A DNA stretch of 64,000 bases from an uncultured Pedosphaera sp. (lineage in GTDB: Bacteria > Verrucomicrobiota > Verrucomicrobiia > Limisphaerales > Pedosphaeraceae). The position numbers were made by a program, and so were the translations under genes. The notes under the pieces were generated by a model. That model searched no databases. It was not told the DNA's origin and saw only the letters and a list, made by a program, of their open reading frames with translations. Numbering within the stretch: the first letter of the stretch is position 1; the number at the start of each line of letters is the position of its first letter. Shown in pieces: positions 7,848 to 63,230 of this stretch. The stretch lies in assembly GCA_903918755.1 (NCBI GenBank), contig CAIXFN010000071.1, positions 1 to 64,000 of the forward strand, read 5' to 3'.

Positions 7848-8674
7848 TTTCGCTATTCGGACGCTTCCTGGCCACGGCATTGCCGCTCGGCGCCCTGCTT
7901 TTCGCCGGCCAATTGACCGTAGCGGGGGCGGAGACCAACACCGCCGTGGTGCCGCTGCGGAACACGCACGCGCACAATGATTATGAACACCCCCACCCGC
8001 TGTTCGACGCCCTGGCGGAAGGGTTCTGCAGTGTCGAAGCGGACATTCATCTGGTCAACGGACAATTGCTCGTGGCGCATGATGTCCAGCACCGGGATCC
8101 GCAGCGTACACTCGAATCTCTTTATCTCGCGCCGCTGCGGCAGCGGATCAAGGAAAACGGCGGCCGGGTCTATCGTGGTGGGCCGGAGTGTGTCTTGCTG
8201 ATCGATTTCAAGACCGACGGTACGGCGATGTATCCGGTGCTGCGGGAGCAACTCCAGAAATATGGGGACATTTTCACGGTCTTCCGCGATGGGCGGAAGG
8301 AAACCAACGCGCTGACCGCCATTCTCACGGGGGGGTATCCCCGGAAACTGCTGGCGGCGGATGCCGTTCGCTATGCGGCGGGCGATGGCACCCTGCCGGA
8401 TCTGGAAACCAATCCGCCGGCCAGCCTGGTGCCGTGGATCAGCGAAGAATGGAAAGCGCTCTTCAAATGGCGCGGCGCGGGGGTGATGTCGGAAGCGGAT
8501 CAGCAGCGCCTGGATGGAATCGTGACCAAGGCGCACGAGCAGGGCCGCCGGGTTCGATTCTATGGAGCGCCCGACAAGCCGATTTTCTGGCAGGCGATGC
8601 TGGACCATCACGTGGATTTGATCAATTCGGACGACCTGCCCGGTTTGCGCAAGTTTCTGACCGCCCGCCCCTGA
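7844..8674 (+). CDS. PI-PLC / glycerophosphodiester phosphodiesterase-like secreted protein
   Basis: 276 aa with a signal peptide (about residues 1-25). The start of the mature protein, NTHAHNDYEHPHPLFDAL, followed by CSVEADIHL and LLVAHD, gives the His, Glu and Asp residues of the PLC-like/GDPD TIM-barrel superfamily. It also has LLIDFKTDG and a C-terminal HVDLINSDDLPGL typical of that group. It probably cleaves a phosphodiester or related substrate outside the cytoplasm; the exact substrate is unknown. Its ATG overlaps the stop of the preceding gene by 4 nt (ATGA), so it belongs to the same transcription unit. Confidence 0.8.
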   Translation: MISLFGRFLATALPLGALLFAGQLTVAGAETNTAVVPLRNTHAHNDYEHPHPLFDALAEGFCSVEADIHLVNGQLLVAHDVQHRDPQRTLESLYLAPLRQRIKENGGRVYRGGPECVLLIDFKTDGTAMYPVLREQLQKYGDIFTVFRDGRKETNALTAILTGGYPRKLLAADAVRYAAGDGTLPDLETNPPASLVPWISEEWKALFKWRGAGVMSEADQQRLDGIVTKAHEQGRRVRFYGAPDKPIFWQAMLDHHVDLINSDDLPGLRKFLTARP

Positions 8675-8682
8675 ACTCCAGC

Positions 8683-8931
8683 GTGAAGCGCAAACTCCGA
8701 ATAACGGCGGTCTATGGGGCGTCCATGGTGGTGATCTTCTGGGCCATGTCCGGCGCGAATCGCGGTTGGACCAAGACCTCGGTGCCGCACACGGTCAAAG
8801 ACCCGGTGACGGAACTGGACGGGGTGGTCTATGTCAACAAATTCGTGCCGGGGGTGGATTTCCTGGGGGCGGGATTGCTGATCAGTGGTTTGATCGCGGC
8901 GGTCTCGCTCGCACTGCAGCGCAAAAAATGA
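8683..8931 (+). CDS. Small membrane protein of unknown function
   Basis: 82 aa with a GTG start 8 nt after the previous stop. Two hydrophobic segments are visible, about residues 7-25 (ITAVYGASMVVIFWAMSG) and 59-78 (DFLGAGLLISGLIAAVSLAL), ending in a basic RKK tail. An ATG 42 nt downstream is an alternative start but would shorten the first segment. No family was recognised. The spacing suggests co-transcription with the amidohydrolase and phosphodiesterase genes. Confidence 0.6.
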   Translation: MKRKLRITAVYGASMVVIFWAMSGANRGWTKTSVPHTVKDPVTELDGVVYVNKFVPGVDFLGAGLLISGLIAAVSLALQRKK

Positions 8932-8959
8932 CTGGATTTCCCGACTTGCACTGTTTCTA

Positions 8960-9577
8960 ATGAATCTTATGAAAAAGCATGCTTTTCTAATGACTTGTTT
9001 CGGTTTCTGCCTGGCGGCTACGGCGGGCCAGCAGACTTTTGATTTCAAAGATCCCAAAGGGGTCAACAACGTGATTTTCAAGACCGATGCCCCGCTGGAA
9101 TCGATCAACGGGACCGCGACCGGTGTCTCGGGCAATGTGGCGTTTGACCCGGCTGATCCCGGCTCGATCAAGGGGAAGATTGTCGTGGATGCCGCCACGC
9201 TGCATGTCCCCAACCCGATGATGAAGGAACATCTGCAAGGGGCCATGTGGCTGGATGTCGCCAAGTTTCCAACGATTACGTTTGAGGCGATCAGTGCGGC
9301 CAAGGCCAAAACGGCTGAGAACGTCACCACGGCGGACCTCACTGGCACCATGACGATCAAGGGCGTGGCCAAAAAAATCACCGTGCCTGTGAAGCTCACC
9401 TACCTGGCGGACAAGTTGAAGGACCGCGTGCCCAATCTGAAGGGTGATCTGCTGGTTTTGCGCGGCACTTTCACGGTGAAGCGGAGCGACTTCGGCATTA
9501 ATCAGGGCAAAGGGGAAGACAAGGTGGCGGATGAGATCGAATTGACTTTGAGCCTCGCCGGTCAATCCCCCCGCTGA
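8960..9577 (+). CDS. YceI-family periplasmic lipid-binding protein
   Basis: 205 aa with a signal peptide (MNLMKKHAFLMTCFGFCLAATA). YceI-domain features are GTATGVSGNVAFDPADPGSIKG near the N-terminus and KRSDFGINQGKGEDKVADEIELTLSL near the C-terminus. The family forms an elongated lipocalin-like barrel that binds isoprenoid-type lipids; the physiological ligand here is unknown. A second ATG nine bases downstream is an equally good start. It follows the small membrane protein by 28 nt. Confidence 0.9.
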   Translation: MNLMKKHAFLMTCFGFCLAATAGQQTFDFKDPKGVNNVIFKTDAPLESINGTATGVSGNVAFDPADPGSIKGKIVVDAATLHVPNPMMKEHLQGAMWLDVAKFPTITFEAISAAKAKTAENVTTADLTGTMTIKGVAKKITVPVKLTYLADKLKDRVPNLKGDLLVLRGTFTVKRSDFGINQGKGEDKVADEIELTLSLAGQSPR

Positions 9578-9596
9578 GCGGAGCCCACCTGCCCTT

Positions 9597-9998
9597 TTGA
9601 ACACCTTCCCGACATTTCAGGAACCCGCCGGATTGCGGGTGACGGTGGATCGCGTCATCTACCTGCGGACCGCCCAAACCAGCGAGGATCGGCCGCACTG
9701 CTTTGGCTACTTTATTACCATTCACAACGATACCGAATCGGCGGTGACCGTGAAGGCCCGCAAGTGGGTGGTCACGGAAGGTGAAGGCCGGGTGACCGCA
9801 GTGGAGGGGGCGGGCGTCGTGGGGCAAACCCCGACCATCGAACCGGGGGAGTCCTTCAGCTACAACAGCTTCCATCTCCTGACCGACCTACGCGGAGTGG
9901 CGGAAGGCAGTTACCTGGGGATCGACGCGGCCGGCCAACGGGTGTTGACGAGAATTCCGCGGTTTGAGATGACTGTGCCGTCCGAGGGCGCGGAATAG
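9597..9998 (+). CDS. apaG: ApaG-domain protein
   Basis: 133 aa, close to the usual ApaG length. Diagnostic segments are FGYFITIHNDTESAVTV and LTDLRGVAEGSY, with RKWVVTEGEGRV between them, giving the FN3-like beta fold of the DUF525/ApaG family. The start is taken as TTG (residues NTFPTF follow), because there is no ATG in the frame and other ApaG proteins begin at about this point. Members have been linked to divalent-cation homeostasis and nucleotide binding; the role here is not shown by the sequence. It ends 12 nt before the convergent infA stop. Confidence 0.82.
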   Translation: MNTFPTFQEPAGLRVTVDRVIYLRTAQTSEDRPHCFGYFITIHNDTESAVTVKARKWVVTEGEGRVTAVEGAGVVGQTPTIEPGESFSYNSFHLLTDLRGVAEGSYLGIDAAGQRVLTRIPRFEMTVPSEGAE

Positions 9999-57933: not shown

Positions 57934-58749
57934 ATGAACACTATGAACCAACTCTTGTTGCCCCGGTCCCCCCGGCGCGCCGGCCTGTGCGGGTCCGGTT
58001 TTACCCTCATCGAACTGCTCGTGGTCATCGCGATCATCGCCATCCTCGCCGGCATGCTCCTCCCGGTCCTCGCCCGCGCCAAGCAACGGGCCTTGAGCAT
58101 CGCCTGTTTGAGCAATCTGAAACAGTTGCAGATTTGCTACGTGATGTACTGCCAGGACAACCATGATTTCGTCCCGCTGAACCACGCCGTTTCCACCACC
58201 AGCCTCCAGCAGTCCTGGGTCCTGGGCAATGCCAAGACCGACCTCACCACCAGCAACATCGAGGCGGGCGTGTTGTTTCCGTACAATCGCTCCGTCAGCG
58301 TTTACGTCTGTCCCGCGGATCAGTCTAAGACCCTCCCGAGCGCCGGCCTGCCCCTGGGCGTACCTCGTTGCCGCAGCTATTCAATTGATTACGTCCTCGG
58401 CGGCGATGATGGCCTCGCTTACGTCATCAACCGCGCCGCGGACATCGTCCACCCCGTCCCCTCCAAAAAATCCGTCTTCTGGGACGAAGATTACCGCAGC
58501 ATCGACAACGGCGCCTTCGGCATCCTGCCCAAGGGCAACTGGTCCTGGTGGAACCAACCCGCCAGCCGGCATAACCGCGGCTGTTGCATGTCCTTTTTCG
58601 ACGGTCACGCGGAATATTGGAAATGGCTGGACCCCAGCGTCCTGGCCGTCGGGGTGCCGGTTTCCCCGGTGGGTTCCGCCATGGCCACGCCGCCCGTACC
58701 CACCACCGACCGGGACCTGCCCCGCGTGCAGGCCACCACTCCGCCTTGA
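57934..58749 (+). CDS. Type II secretion/prepilin-like protein (DUF1559-related, Verrucomicrobia type)
   Basis: 271 aa. The cleavage/methylation motif GFTLIELLVVIAIIAILAGM begins at about residue 23, followed by LLPVLARAKQRALSIACLSN and LKQLQICYVMY, the standard start of this abundant family in Verrucomicrobiota and Lentisphaerae. The C-terminus has the H-x9-DG-type motif RHNRGCCMSFFDGHAEYW. It should be cleaved by a prepilin peptidase after the Gly of GFTL and inserted in a pseudopilus or displayed. A second ATG nine bases later is possible. Confidence 0.92.
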   Translation: MNTMNQLLLPRSPRRAGLCGSGFTLIELLVVIAIIAILAGMLLPVLARAKQRALSIACLSNLKQLQICYVMYCQDNHDFVPLNHAVSTTSLQQSWVLGNAKTDLTTSNIEAGVLFPYNRSVSVYVCPADQSKTLPSAGLPLGVPRCRSYSIDYVLGGDDGLAYVINRAADIVHPVPSKKSVFWDEDYRSIDNGAFGILPKGNWSWWNQPASRHNRGCCMSFFDGHAEYWKWLDPSVLAVGVPVSPVGSAMATPPVPTTDRDLPRVQATTPP

Positions 58750-58767: not shown

Positions 58768-59967
58768 ATGCGCGCATCCCCTTCAACCTCGTTTGCGAAC
58801 TACCAAAAGGTCTTTCGCTCAGCCGGAGCCAGCGAGACCGAAGCCGGATTTGAGTCACAAATTTCGTTCTTTGGGGCCGCCATGCTAACCGAACGTGAAC
58901 AGCGAAGAATCCTGAAAGGCAGGAATGTTGCAGCCCTGATTGGAGCCGGAATCGCGGGATATTTGGACGCACCGCTGGACGAGGCCTTGCTGCAGCGGGC
59001 CGCCCAGATCTCGCCCACCAATCCCGTTGTCTGGGCCGCCCTGGGGTATCGCAGTTTCAGTTTGATCGCCAATGGGCTGACCAACGGCGGGTCAATGGAA
59101 GCAACCTGCCAAAACGCGGTGGATCAATGGCAAAAATTGGCTCCCGAAAACGCCGCTCCTCGTTACCTGGCGGCAGCCCTCGCTGCGCGCCAATCCAACC
59201 TGGCGGTGGCCAAACAACTGCTCCGGGTCGCCTCCCAAATGGATACGTTCGACTCTTGTGAAGGCCCGCTCAACCGCTGCGTGGTCGTGGCCCTGGAGTC
59301 CGCTGGACGCAGCCGATTCACGGCGCGTCTCGTGGGTTCCGGGAATGTCTCTGGTTTGGTTGCCTGGCACAAATTGAGCCAGTCAATCCTGGATTCCGCC
59401 CCTTCCCGGGAAGAAATTCAAGGTTGTCTCCAACTCGGCTCCCAACTGGCCCGCGACAACAGTATCGCGACCCAAATGCTGGGTTGGGCGATCCAAAAGC
59501 AAGGTTGGGCGAAAATCGCGGAACCGACCACCCCGGCGGAGCTGGCACGAATTGCCGCCGCCAGGCAGCACGTCAGACTGGCTAATGATTATCTGGAATC
59601 ACACCGTACCCGGATCGTAACCGAGGCCCAGTGGATCGATTACTTTGATCGCTCTTTCATCGTCGGGGAAATGACGGCGATTCAGGAGTTGGCCGCCCAG
59701 CTCGGCGACACCTTCAGTTACGCTTGCCGCCCCGCCAACGACTCAGGCAGAATGTTTCCCCATGGCAGTAGTGCTTCATCACCTGCGGGACGGAAACCAA
59801 CAGTGCGGCCGGAATCGGTCCACTTTCCCATCGGTCTGCAATTTCGCAACCCGCTCCCGAATCGCCGGATTGGCCCTGCTGCTGGCTTTCTTTTTTTCCA
59901 CGCCCCTGCTCCCCTTGCGCGCCGCCCCCATCAGCCAGCCCAATATCATCGTCATCTTGGTGGATGA
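58768..59967 (+). CDS. Hypothetical protein with decayed or frameshifted C-terminus
   Basis: 399-aa open frame starting 18 nt after the prepilin-like stop; an ATG at 58882 is an alternative start. Residues about 40-325 read as a plausible helical protein with TPR-like features (LLQRAAQISPTNPVVWAALG, QLAPENAAPRYLAAALAARQ-like, AVAKQLLRVASQMDTF). After about residue 325 the sequence becomes Pro/Arg/Ser/His-rich and overlaps the sulfatase start and signal peptide by 206 nt. A one-base shift would give a stop at 59771, next to the sulfatase ATG. This suggests a frameshift or a lost stop codon. Function unknown. Confidence 0.5.
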   Translation: MRASPSTSFANYQKVFRSAGASETEAGFESQISFFGAAMLTEREQRRILKGRNVAALIGAGIAGYLDAPLDEALLQRAAQISPTNPVVWAALGYRSFSLIANGLTNGGSMEATCQNAVDQWQKLAPENAAPRYLAAALAARQSNLAVAKQLLRVASQMDTFDSCEGPLNRCVVVALESAGRSRFTARLVGSGNVSGLVAWHKLSQSILDSAPSREEIQGCLQLGSQLARDNSIATQMLGWAIQKQGWAKIAEPTTPAELARIAAARQHVRLANDYLESHRTRIVTEAQWIDYFDRSFIVGEMTAIQELAAQLGDTFSYACRPANDSGRMFPHGSSASSPAGRKPTVRPESVHFPIGLQFRNPLPNRRIGPAAGFLFFHAPAPLARRPHQPAQYHRHLGG

Positions 59968-62101
59968 CATGGGATTCTCCGATATCGGCTGCTATGGCAG
60001 CGAAATCCCCACTCCCAACCTCGACCAACTGGCGGCCAACGGACTGCGCTTTACCCAGTTCTATAACACGGGCCGCTGCTGTCCTTCGCGGGCCAGCCTG
60101 CTGACCGGACTCTACTCCCACCAGGCGGGCGTCGGCCACATGGTGGAAGATGGCGGGGTGCCGGGTTACCGCGGCCGGCTGAACGACTCCTGCGTCACTC
60201 TGGCGGAAGTGCTCAAACCGGCCGGTTATTTCACGGCCATGACCGGGAAATGGCATGTGGGGATGGAACACGGCGTGACCCCCGCGAAGCGCGGCTTCAT
60301 GCGCAGTCTGAACGCCCCGGCGGGCGGTTTTTATTATGGCGCCTCCCCGCGCGCGGAATTGTATCTCGACGGCCGCAAACTCGCCCCCAACGCCCCGGAA
60401 CTGCCCAAGGATTGGTACACCACCGATCTCTGGACGGACTATGGCATCCGGTTCATCGATGAGGCGCGCGCCGCCAAGAAGCCCTTTTTTCTCTACCTCG
60501 CGCACAATGCCCCGCATTTCCCCTTGCAGGCGCCCGCGGATGAAATCGCGAAGTTTCGCGGTAAATATCGCGTCGGCTGGGATAAACTCCGGGAAGCCCG
60601 CCACGCCCGGCAGCTCGAACTGGGCATCATGGACAAATCCTGGCCGCTTGCGCCCCGACCGCCGGCGGTGAAAGCCTGGGATTCCCTCACCCCGGCCGAG
60701 CAGGATCGGTTCGACGAAATCATGGCGATTTACGCCGCCTGCGCCGCGCACATGGACACCGCGGTCGGGCGATTGGTAAGCGCGCTCCGGGAACGCGGCG
60801 TGCTGGACAACACCCTGATCCTTTTTATGAGTGACAACGGCGGCAACGCCGAGGGCGGCCCTAACGGCACCACGGAAGGCAGTCCCCTGGGCAGCGCCGC
60901 TTCCACGGTATTTTGCGGCCAGTCCTGGGCCACCCTCGAAAACACCCCCTTGCGCCGCTACAAACACTTCAATCATGAAGGGGGCATCGCCACGCCGCTC
61001 ATTGCCCATTGGCCCGCGGGCATTGCCGCCCAGGGCGAATTGCGCGCACAACCGGGTCACCTGATCGATATCATGACCACCTGCGTGGAAGTCGCCGGGG
61101 CCACGTATCCCCGCAAGTTCAAGGGCAAGCCCATCCGGCCGATGGAAGGCCGGAGTTTGGTGCCGGCCTTCGCCAACCAACCGGTCACCCGCGAGGGACT
61201 CTTTTGGGAACACGAAGGCAACGCCGCCGCCCGCGTCGGGGATTGGAAAATCGCCCGCGTCGGCCGGAACGGCGCCTGGGAATTGTATAATCTCGCGAGT
61301 GACCGCACCGAGTTGCAGGATCTCGCCGCGACCCAACCGGAACGGCTCCGCGAAATGGCCGCCCTCTGGGATCGCTGGGCGGAACGCGCTCAGGTCAAGC
61401 CCTACCCCACCCCGGCCGCCGCCAAACCCAAAGCCCCCACCGTCAAATCCACCGCCACGCACCAAACCAACCAACTCGAAGGCTGGTCGGTCATCATCAA
61501 CACGCGCCTGCTCGAAACGGAACCGGAGGCCACGGCGAAGGCGCTGGAGCTCCTGCGGATCCAACTCCAGGAAATCATCCGCGTCGTCCCCGCGCCCGGC
61601 GTAAAATTTCTGCGCACGGTCAATTTGTGGTTCTCCCCCGAATATCCCGGCATCCCGCCCCGGGCGGAATTTCATCCGGACGCCGGCTGGCTGCGCGACC
61701 ACGGGCGCGATCCGCGTATGGCGAAGGGCGTGGAATTCACGGACGTGCGGAGTTTCGCCGCCGAGACCATCCGGATGCCGAATTTCACCCTGCACGAATT
61801 GGCCCACGCCTACCACGACGGCATGCTGCCGGGCGGATTTGACAACGCGGACCTCAAGGCGGCCTACGACCGCGCCAAGGCCAGCCATACCTACGATAAG
61901 GTCGAGCGCTGGTTCGGCAGCGGCCGCCCCAACACGCACGAGCGCCACTACGGCATGACGAATCCCATGGAGTATTTTGCCGAATCCACCGAGGCTTATT
62001 TTTCCCGCAACGATTTCTATCCTTTTAATCACGCGGAACTCATCCAACATGATCCCGAAATGGAAAAGCTGCTCACCCGGCTTTGGGGCGTGACCCCTTG
62101 A
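59762..62101 (+). CDS. Arylsulfatase-type sulfatase fused to a C-terminal HExxH metallopeptidase-like domain
   Basis: 779 aa. A signal anchor spans about residues 33-53 ([20 protein letters not shown]). The sulfatase domain (about 60-540) has [20 protein letters not shown], the formylglycine site C106 in [11 protein letters not shown], and [28 protein letters not shown]. From about 545 the chain continues with a new domain containing H678 and H682 in [10 protein letters not shown] and a downstream acidic motif [12 protein letters not shown] (E741/E744), a zincin-like arrangement. Sulfatases need Cys to formylglycine conversion by FGE. The enzyme is exported and probably acts on a sulfated polysaccharide or glycan. 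Confidence 0.87.
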
Positions 62102-62126
62102 CCCTTTTTTAAGCAAACTGATCCCG

Positions 62127-63230
62127 ATGAAAATCAAACGCATCTTCGCGCATCGCGTCGAACTCCCTCTGCACGAAACCACTTACAAATGGTCCGGCGG
62201 CAAATCCGTCACCGTTTTTGACAGCACCATCGTCGGCGTGGAAACCGACACCGGCCTGGTCGGCTACGGCGAGGTCTGCCCACTCGGGCCCTTTTATCTG
62301 CCCGCCTATGCGGACGGCGTGCGGGCCGGCTTGCGGGAATTGGGGCCGCACCTGATTGGCCAGGACCCCCGGGAATTGACCAAACTCAACTATCGCATGG
62401 ACGCCGCGCTGAAGGGCCATCCGTATGTGAAATCAGGCATCGATATCGCCTGCTGGGACATTTTGGGCCAATTCGCCCAAATGCCCGTCTGTGAATTGCT
62501 CGGCGGCCGTTACGGCGAGGACGTGCATCTCTACCGCGCCATCTCCCAGGAAACGCCAGAGATCATGGCCGGCAAAGTGGCCGAGTATCGCGCCCAGGGC
62601 TACCGCCGCTTTCAACTGAAGGTCGGCGGCGATCCCGATGTGGACATCGCCCGCATCCATGCCGTGGCGGCCCAGTTGGAGTCCGGCGACCGCCTCGTGG
62701 CCGACGCCAACACCGGCTGGGTCCAACACGAAGCCGTACGGGTGGCCCGCGCGGTGCGCGATGTGGATGTTTACATCGAGCAACCCTGCCTCACCTACGA
62801 GGAATGCCTGGCCGTCCGCCGCCAGACCCCGCACCCCTTCGTCCTCGACGAGAATATCGACGACCTCAACATCCTCCTGCGCGCCAAGGCCGATCTGGCC
62901 ATGGATGTGGTGAATTTGAAGATCAGCAAGCTCGGCGGCCTTACCAAGATCCGCCAGGCCCGCGACCTCTGCGTCAGCATGGGCATCGCCATGACCTTGG
63001 AAGATTCCTGGGGTGGCGATATCGCCACGGCTGCCATTGCCCATCTCGCTCACAGCACGCCGACGCCGTTCCTGTTCACCACCACGGATTTCAACAGCTA
63101 TGTCACCGTCAGCACCGCCGATGGAGCGCCCCAGCGCGTGAACGGCCGGATGGCGGCGTCCAAATCACCGGGCCTGGGCATCCAGCCAAAAATGGAAGTC
63201 CTCGGGCCCCGCGTGGTGGAAATCTCATGA
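62127..63230 (+). CDS. Mandelate racemase/muconate lactonizing enzyme family protein
   Basis: 367 aa. Enolase-superfamily residues are visible: K165 in FQLKVGGD, the metal ligands D193 in ADANTGW, E218 in YIEQPC and E242 in LDENI, and K265 or K268 in NLKISKLGG. The second-Lys pattern fits the subgroup of cis-3-hydroxy-L-proline dehydratase and 4-hydroxyproline betaine 2-epimerase more than true mandelate racemase. The exact substrate is not decided by sequence. It lies 25 nt downstream of the sulfatase and overlaps the next gene by 4 nt. Confidence 0.87.

Follow-up and report, generated by a model that had tools for sequence, protein, structure and literature searches.

What could a bacterium do with a polypeptide that carries a sulfatase at one end and a zinc-peptidase-like domain at the other? 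The question is raised by an open reading frame (ORF) in a 64,000-nucleotide stretch of DNA from an uncultured Pedosphaera sp. of the Verrucomicrobiota (contig CAIXFN010000071.1, C71:1-64000, in a genome of 7.19 Mb), which is called the window here. An earlier note on the window had proposed that a sulfatase and a HELAH domain are joined in one frame at 59762-62101, and that the product might desulfate and cleave a sulfated glycoprotein or, as is also conceivable, process another partner. The fusion is confirmed as real and not due to chance. The most economical account of it and of its context is a secreted bifunctional enzyme that desulfates and cuts proline- or hydroxyproline-rich glycoproteins ahead of imino-acid catabolism, to which we give a probability of roughly 45%. 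Papers are cited below by their PubMed Central (PMC) numbers.

Two domains in one reading frame

The ORF holds at the coordinates proposed for it, with a PF00884 match over residues 60–446 (E 3.5e-62; 210.9 bits against a cut-off of 25) that assigns the N-terminal half to the S1 (formylglycine) sulfatases, and with HELAH at residues 678–682. A second species of the genus (genome G387, locus L004) has the same fusion in a single open frame, the peptidase domain being 81% identical. An assembly chimaera was rejected, since the fusion and the gene order both recur in this species. An ORF of 822 amino acids (aa) on the opposite strand (59714-62182) looks like a high-GC shadow and was rejected as a real gene, the forward frame holding two conserved domains. 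The start codon is uncertain, because the ATG at 59762 gives a long stretch ahead of the signal-like segment and overlaps the ORF at 58768-59967. The latter (399 aa) runs at its 3′ end into the annotated start of the fusion; it has no Pfam or NCBIfam match, and its tail may be noncoding. The linker between the two halves contains neither an internal ATG nor a second signal-like segment, and for this reason the peptidase domain should be exported solely within the fusion.

The best solved relative of the sulfatase half is 7ALL (1.1e-118, residues 55–548), with which C106-C-P-S-R110 and the DDMGFSD, GKWHV, SDNG and YK stretches align. We take the C-x-P-S-R motif, with Cys106 as the formylglycine site, to apply here as in S1 sulfatases generally. 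PF03781, of the formylglycine-generating enzyme type, has eight matches in the source genome. 7ALL is BT4683 of Bacteroides thetaiotaomicron, an S1_4 sulfatase acting on 3S-Gal (galactose-3-sulfatase; PMC10154620). The likeness extends over the sulfatase half and its active-site stretches, whereas the solved chain of 523 residues ends soon past the matched residues 22–500 and leaves no room for a peptidase domain. The putative kinship of the window sulfatase with S1_4 is drawn from this single nearest solved relative. Similar sulfatases (E ≤ 1e-60) occur in 39 of the 58 genomes of the order, the source genome counted, and the peptidase domain is absent from the 11 best loci outside the window (L110–L120, with 1.5 kb flanks). 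Since these 11 relatives have no peptidase domain, the fusion looks derived. Three of them (L112, L114 and L120) carry other C-terminal additions, LamG- or discoidin-like by eye.

The C-terminal domain comprises about 215 residues, in which HELAH is followed by Tyr730, Glu737 and Glu741. Its AlphaFold2 model, built with 16 sequences, is confident (pLDDT 92.0, pTM 0.90) and presents a zinc-peptidase fold rather than a non-metallopeptidase one. In the VIA-align comparison the model matches PPEP-2 (Z 12.3, rmsd 3.2, 156 residues aligned, 17% identity), PPEP-3 (Z 12.2), the lethal factor structure 4pku (Z 11.9, 173 aligned, rmsd 4.0) and PPEP-1 (Z up to 11.1). Judged from the model, the domain is of the ATLF/PPEP-fold gluzincin type, which is presumably MEROPS M34. 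With PPEP-1 (Zmp1), PPEP-2 and PPEP-3 it shares a zinc-peptidase fold of about 200 residues over most of its length (Z 10.2–12.3), HExxH and Tyr-x6-Glu; it differs from them in an identity of 14–19%, in being fused to a sulfatase, and in a proline specificity that would be assigned to it by analogy. The gap between HExxH and Glu is 59 residues (His678 to Glu737; the earlier note had estimated about 60), against about 44 in PPEP-3 (His153 to Glu197).

The likeness to the catalytic domain of anthrax lethal factor (ATLF) covers the fold and the zinc site, whereas no toxin context is seen around the window domain, and its PF07737 score is below the cut-off (19.4 against 27.4). Foldseek gave no match at E ≤ 0.001, its top match being the lethal-toxin entry 6zxk_J (E 0.021). 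Similarly, the HExxH region and the Glu motif are shared with Peptidase M90 (MtfA, PF06167), but the domain reaches 21.6 bits where the cut-off is 26.2, and M90 was set aside as its family for being sub-threshold by sequence. Three relatives (L006, L008 and L096) exceed both cut-offs, with 30.6, 34.3 and 40.0 for ATLF and 29.3, 29.3 and 28.7 for M90, and 14 of the 14 members of A2 match M90 at E up to 0.1. The match to 3DL1, which we take to be an MtfA-like entry, covers just 37 positions (E 1.6); MtfA was not among the 50 rows listed by the VIA-align comparison, itself a second look, and this excludes nothing. The window domain is probably a divergent relative of the ATLF family, and we do not file it as a member. 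The earlier note had likened the arrangement to lethal-factor-like or M90-type gluzincins; the first likeness is supported by the structure comparison, the second for the window domain by a sub-threshold sequence match only.

Conservation of the catalytic residues, whose absence that note would have taken as a refutation, is found throughout the homologues. HExxH, Tyr and both Glu (Glu737 and Glu741) are the same in all 86 aligned domains, where identical domains were counted once and four partial pieces from L018, L041 and L063 were excluded; Glu744 is kept in 85, and HELAHxxH retains its third His in 76. From these residues we infer zinc binding and peptidase activity. PPEP-3 has Tyr190 and the zinc-coordinating Glu197, and PPEP-1 has Tyr178 and a ligand within the Glu pair 184/185 (PMC12828418). 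The Tyr-to-Glu spacing of seven is the same in the window domain as in PPEP-3. A stand-alone paralogue (L002; G000:C73:123766-124413, minus strand) occurs in the source genome; it is 42% identical, has a signal-like N-terminus and keeps the catalytic residues. The search for the domain on its own and in other fusions, as the note had advised, thus returned this stand-alone form and a variety of partners.

Table 1. Positions of the fusion gene, its parts and its nearest neighbours in the window.
Feature	Coordinates	Strand	Basis and remarks
Whole fusion ORF	59762..62101	+	779 aa; signal-peptide-like N-terminus (by eye), sulfatase, linker, zinc-peptidase domain; start codon uncertain
Sulfatase domain PF00884	59939..61099	+	Pfam match; nearest solved relative 7ALL
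Sulfatase C-x-P-S-R motif, Cys106 as expected formylglycine site	60077..60091	+	Sequence; aligned with 7ALL
Pro/Ala/Lys-rich linker	61391..61450	+	Sequence reading
Predicted zinc-peptidase domain, PPEP/lethal-factor fold	61451..62092	+	Model and structure comparison
HELAH zinc-binding motif (His678, Glu679, His682)	61793..61807	+	Conserved 86/86
Tyr730, by spacing equivalent to PPEP-3 Tyr190 and PPEP-1 Tyr178 (oxyanion hole)	61949..61951	+	Conserved 86/86; PPEP numbering from PMC12828418
Glu737, expected third zinc ligand	61970..61972	+	Conserved 86/86; 7 residues past Tyr730, compare PPEP-3 Tyr190/Glu197
Predicted hydroxyproline dehydratase gene, enolase superfamily	62127..63230	+	Profile score; same order in L004
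Prepilin-like gene upstream of the fusion, ORF 58768-59967 in between	57934..58749	+	Similar gene directly before the fusion in L004

Fusion partners and sulfatase neighbours

Matches to the peptidase domain at E ≤ 1e-20 come from 24 of the 387 genomes searched in the window's phylum, and those at E ≤ 1e-8 from 85 of the 392 in the phylum to which L009 (a Pirellula staleyi record) belongs. At E ≤ 1e-3 the first count rises to 69 of 387. In 45 of these 69 the matches are weak only, about 20–29 bits over the region from HExxH to Glu in frames of about 250–600 aa, and perhaps belong to M90/MtfA relatives. Spread by plasmid or phage was rejected: tblastn found no match in 72,556 plasmid records, and no relative was confirmed in viral contigs.

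Fusion to a sulfatase is found in six rows of the 86-row tree (the window, L004, L017, L093, L095 and L097). Fusions were read in 19 newly found matches with frames of at least 391 aa from the second phylum and in one from the window's own. The six rows require five changes, all five forced by well-supported branches, where a change may be a loss as well as a gain. Separate gains are favored, since the fused sulfatases differ in kind. For instance, those of L017 and L095, which lie in different main clades, are nearest to 6HHM and iduronate-2-sulfatase, that of L093 is nearest to a group including 9S8Y, 5G2V and 7P24 (GlcNAc-6-sulfatase, mucin-desulfating sulfatase), that of L097 has mixed nearest relatives, and that of the window is 7ALL-like. 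Their formylglycine motifs are intact by reading. In L097 (1133-3742) a GDSL lipase, a sulfatase and the peptidase domain share one ORF.

Other partners recur as well. SASA esterases are fused to the domain in L014, L089/L060 and L094, three rows that need three changes on the same tree, and S9/DPP-IV peptidases in L009 and L092 by Pfam and in L011 and L013 by reading. GH39 (L101), a beta-lactamase fold (L100) and an amidase with NHL (L102) are found once each. In 60 of the 86 rows no partner was recognized; Pfam was not run on every one of the shorter frames. Nine rows have the domain fused to another of its own kind. These tandem proteins (L007, L008, L016, L020 and L024; L005, L006, L064 and L096) occur in either order, and both of their domains match the same profile; by reading, each has HExxH and, downstream of it, a Glu motif. 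The arrangement recalls the two ATLF domains of lethal factor. In L103 (minus strand) the peptidase domain is joined to an arylsulfotransferase-type (ASST) domain.

Neighboring genes were read in 82 loci, namely 80 domain loci with flanks of about 7 kb either way, the window's own locus and the G387 contig, some of them cut by contig ends. The 80 loci consist of 61 of the 91 matches in the phylum of L009 and 19 of the strong matches from two further searches, one of them through the window's phylum. Shadow ORFs probably displaced genes in a gene-calling pass, which recovered the domain in 64 of 83 loci; an all-frames search recovered it in 82 of 82. Besides four fused sulfatase ORFs, the 82 loci contain 20 separate sulfatase genes. 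In 9 of the 82 a sulfatase gene with the same orientation lies no more than 500 nt away, which makes sulfatases the commonest co-directional neighbor family. Nine adjacent genes out of 20 compare with 1.1 expected under a rough positional null that assumes 60% on the same strand (P 5.5e-7), a P that is optimistic in view of close relatives among the loci, such as L133 and L134. When fused and adjacent sulfatases are combined, a quick tree of 88 rows requires 13 changes, nine of them forced by the best-supported branches. DPP-IV, too, is both a fusion partner and a neighbor of the domain. The commonest neighbor of any orientation is an opposite-strand gene found in 15 of the 82 loci (L172:2081-3433, for example), whose representative is a 3-keto-disaccharide hydrolase.

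A predicted hydroxyproline dehydratase next door

The gene that follows the fusion, which the earlier note had not brought up, scores 604.1 with a hydroxyproline dehydratase profile whose cut-off is 500. The nearest solved structure to its product, a predicted hydroxyproline dehydratase, is 4MGG (2.1e-148). LhpJ of Labrenzia is an enolase-type hydroxyproline enzyme with described activity and substrate (PMC5144071). The order of fusion and dehydratase is the same in L004. In 5 of the 82 loci the domain gene has a close dehydratase homologue (69–100% identity) as its co-directional neighbor; these loci belong to the source genome, G387, G717, G653 and G612, and the homologues of the last three (L130, L131 and L156) score 599.5, 647.4 and 618.8. 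In G717 the dehydratase lies upstream of a DPP-IV–peptidase fusion, and in G653 the stop of the peptidase overlaps the start of the dehydratase as ATGA. On the quick tree the adjacency requires four changes, of which the best-supported branches force two. In G653 the pair lies between genes for a SulP sulfate permease and a sodium:solute symporter (L131:3469-5241 and 8094-9746).

The two families also occur together. Of 392 genomes, both are found in 36, the dehydratase alone in 5, the domain alone in 49 and neither in 302 (Fisher p 3.9e-22), so that the domain is present in 36 of 41 genomes with a dehydratase and in 49 of 351 others; these counts ignore relatedness and were scored with up to 7 domain candidates and 4–5 dehydratase candidates per genome. 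Adjacency carries more weight than co-occurrence because the counts ignore relatedness. In the window's own phylum a dehydratase at E ≤ 1e-110 is found in 2 of 387 genomes, both with a strong domain match. Nine further genomes were searched for it, and G387 alone was positive.

Further downstream, two genes separate the dehydratase gene from a GH127 beta-L-arabinofuranosidase gene on the same strand (C71:68721-70793, 283.3 bits), which is followed by a DPP-IV gene, also on the same strand (C71:71653-73929). DPP-IV removes Xaa-Pro dipeptides. Arabinosides of hydroxyproline-rich glycoproteins are substrates of GH127 enzymes (PMC4454575; PMC7263609). As a conserved partner GH127 was rejected, for it lies near the domain in 1 of the 82 loci, the window's own, and it is kept as a local observation.

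A proposed bifunctional enzyme and its alternatives

These observations can be joined in one pathway. The fusion protein would be exported as a two-headed enzyme, in which the S1-type sulfatase would strip sulfate esters from glycans still bound to protein, and the PPEP/lethal-factor (ATLF) fold zinc endopeptidase would cut the proline- or hydroxyproline-rich backbone. Acting together, the two halves would make sulfated glycoproteins of the hydroxyproline-rich or mucin-like kind available as nutrients. The freed hydroxyproline would then be imported and dehydrated by the enolase-type enzyme of the next gene, while the downstream GH127 and DPP-IV may remove arabinose and Xaa-Pro dipeptides. Both hydroxyproline-rich glycoproteins from algae or plants and proteins of the mucin type are possible substrates. 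The substrate suggested in the earlier note gains circumstantial support from the repeated sulfatase fusions and from the sulfatase and dehydratase neighbors.

Several points weigh against this pathway, besides the Foldseek and Pfam scores and the limits attached to the tree and co-occurrence counts above, and the single locus with GH127. We know of no activity for any member of the peptidase family. The dehydratase is missing from 49 of the 85 genomes with the domain, and from three of the five sulfatase-fused lineages (G396, G533 and G716). In plants and algae it is 4-hydroxyproline that is abundant. Moreover, cis-3-hydroxyproline is thought to be scarce in nature, and free 3-hydroxyprolines have been suggested to derive from peptide antibiotics (PMC5144071).

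Alternatively, the peptidase may act like PPEP-1 and PPEP-2 on bacterial surface or adhesion proteins, or on its own enzyme, and so release or process cells or the sulfatase, the latter being a separate polysaccharide enzyme. The characterized PPEPs do cut bacterial adhesion proteins (PMC11460543), and partners as varied as sulfatase, SASA esterase, S9, GH39, amidase and beta-lactamase fold would suit a general helper. Nevertheless, this alternative leaves both the dehydratase neighbor and the co-occurrence unexplained, most rows have nothing recognized in fusion to be released, and the linker contains no Pro-Pro pair. We consider it unlikely.

Somewhat less likely again is the same two-headed enzyme directed at a mucin-type (Pro/Thr/Ser-rich) glycoprotein or a proteoglycan, with the dehydratase link incidental. 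BT4683, the nearest solved sulfatase, is endo-acting on intact colonic mucin O-glycans (PMC10154612), the partner in L093 is near sulfatases of the mucin-desulfating kind, and SASA esterases are partners in three rows that need three changes. However, S1_4 spans other specificities, such as that of BT3487 for 6S-Gal (PMC10154620), and an incidental dehydratase would have had to become adjacent, or cease to be so, in four changes.

It is improbable that the domain is a pseudo-peptidase that does not cut and only anchors the sulfatase to a protein or glycan. CD1597, a PPEP-like protein with intact HExxH, was inactive in two assays (PMC11460543), which also counts against activity in the window domain, and many different enzyme partners are what a binding module might have; yet five catalytic positions are identical across 86 divergent sequences, which binding alone would not demand. 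Improbable to the same degree is a functionally weightless fusion, of the sort that sulfatase-rich bacteria (17 full-length sulfatases in the source genome, 21–108 PF00884 matches in eight others; Planctomycetes are known for multi-domain sulfatases, PMC4807772) might retain by chance with secreted domains, as neither the five forced fusion changes nor the excess of co-directional adjacent sulfatases over the rough null, with its optimistic P, is what it predicts.

The secreted bifunctional enzyme may be one instance of a wider pattern, a proposal that we hold more tentatively than the enzyme itself. In many Planctomycetota and Verrucomicrobiota a PPEP-fold peptidase family could be dedicated to proline- and hydroxyproline-rich glycoproteins, having repeatedly recruited, as fusions or neighbor genes, the enzymes that unmask them (sulfatases, sialate-type esterases and DPP-IV) and the hydroxyproline dehydratase that consumes the product.

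The earlier note knew of no described family with such a fusion, and no published sulfatase–peptidase fusion, nor a link between PPEPs and hydroxyproline, was found in the literature searched, outside which subscription journals and preprints mostly lie. Sulfatase fusions with GH10, GH29, GH32, alginate lyase, esterase and laminin G have been described in PVC bacteria (PMC6388578; PMC4807772), and the word "peptidase" is absent from the main texts of these two papers. The window protein resembles them in joining a sulfatase to another module and differs in that the module is a peptidase domain. PMC12997984 mentions a GH20–peptidase protein. Neither parent fold is new by itself; what is new, within the literature searched, is their pairing.

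The fusion and its context link sulfatases, the lethal-factor/PPEP peptidase fold and hydroxyproline catabolism, which were not found linked in the same literature. If the proposed function is true, nutrition would be a further role of a fold met mainly in toxins and in enzymes that cut adhesins, and a peptidase family found in 85 of 392 and 24 of 387 genomes of two phyla would have a function. The context would then also suggest a possible source of hydroxyproline for 3-hydroxyproline dehydratases. A family dedicated to such glycoproteins would amount to an offshoot of the lethal-factor fold devoted to nutrition, through which sulfated glycoproteins of algae or animals are recycled.

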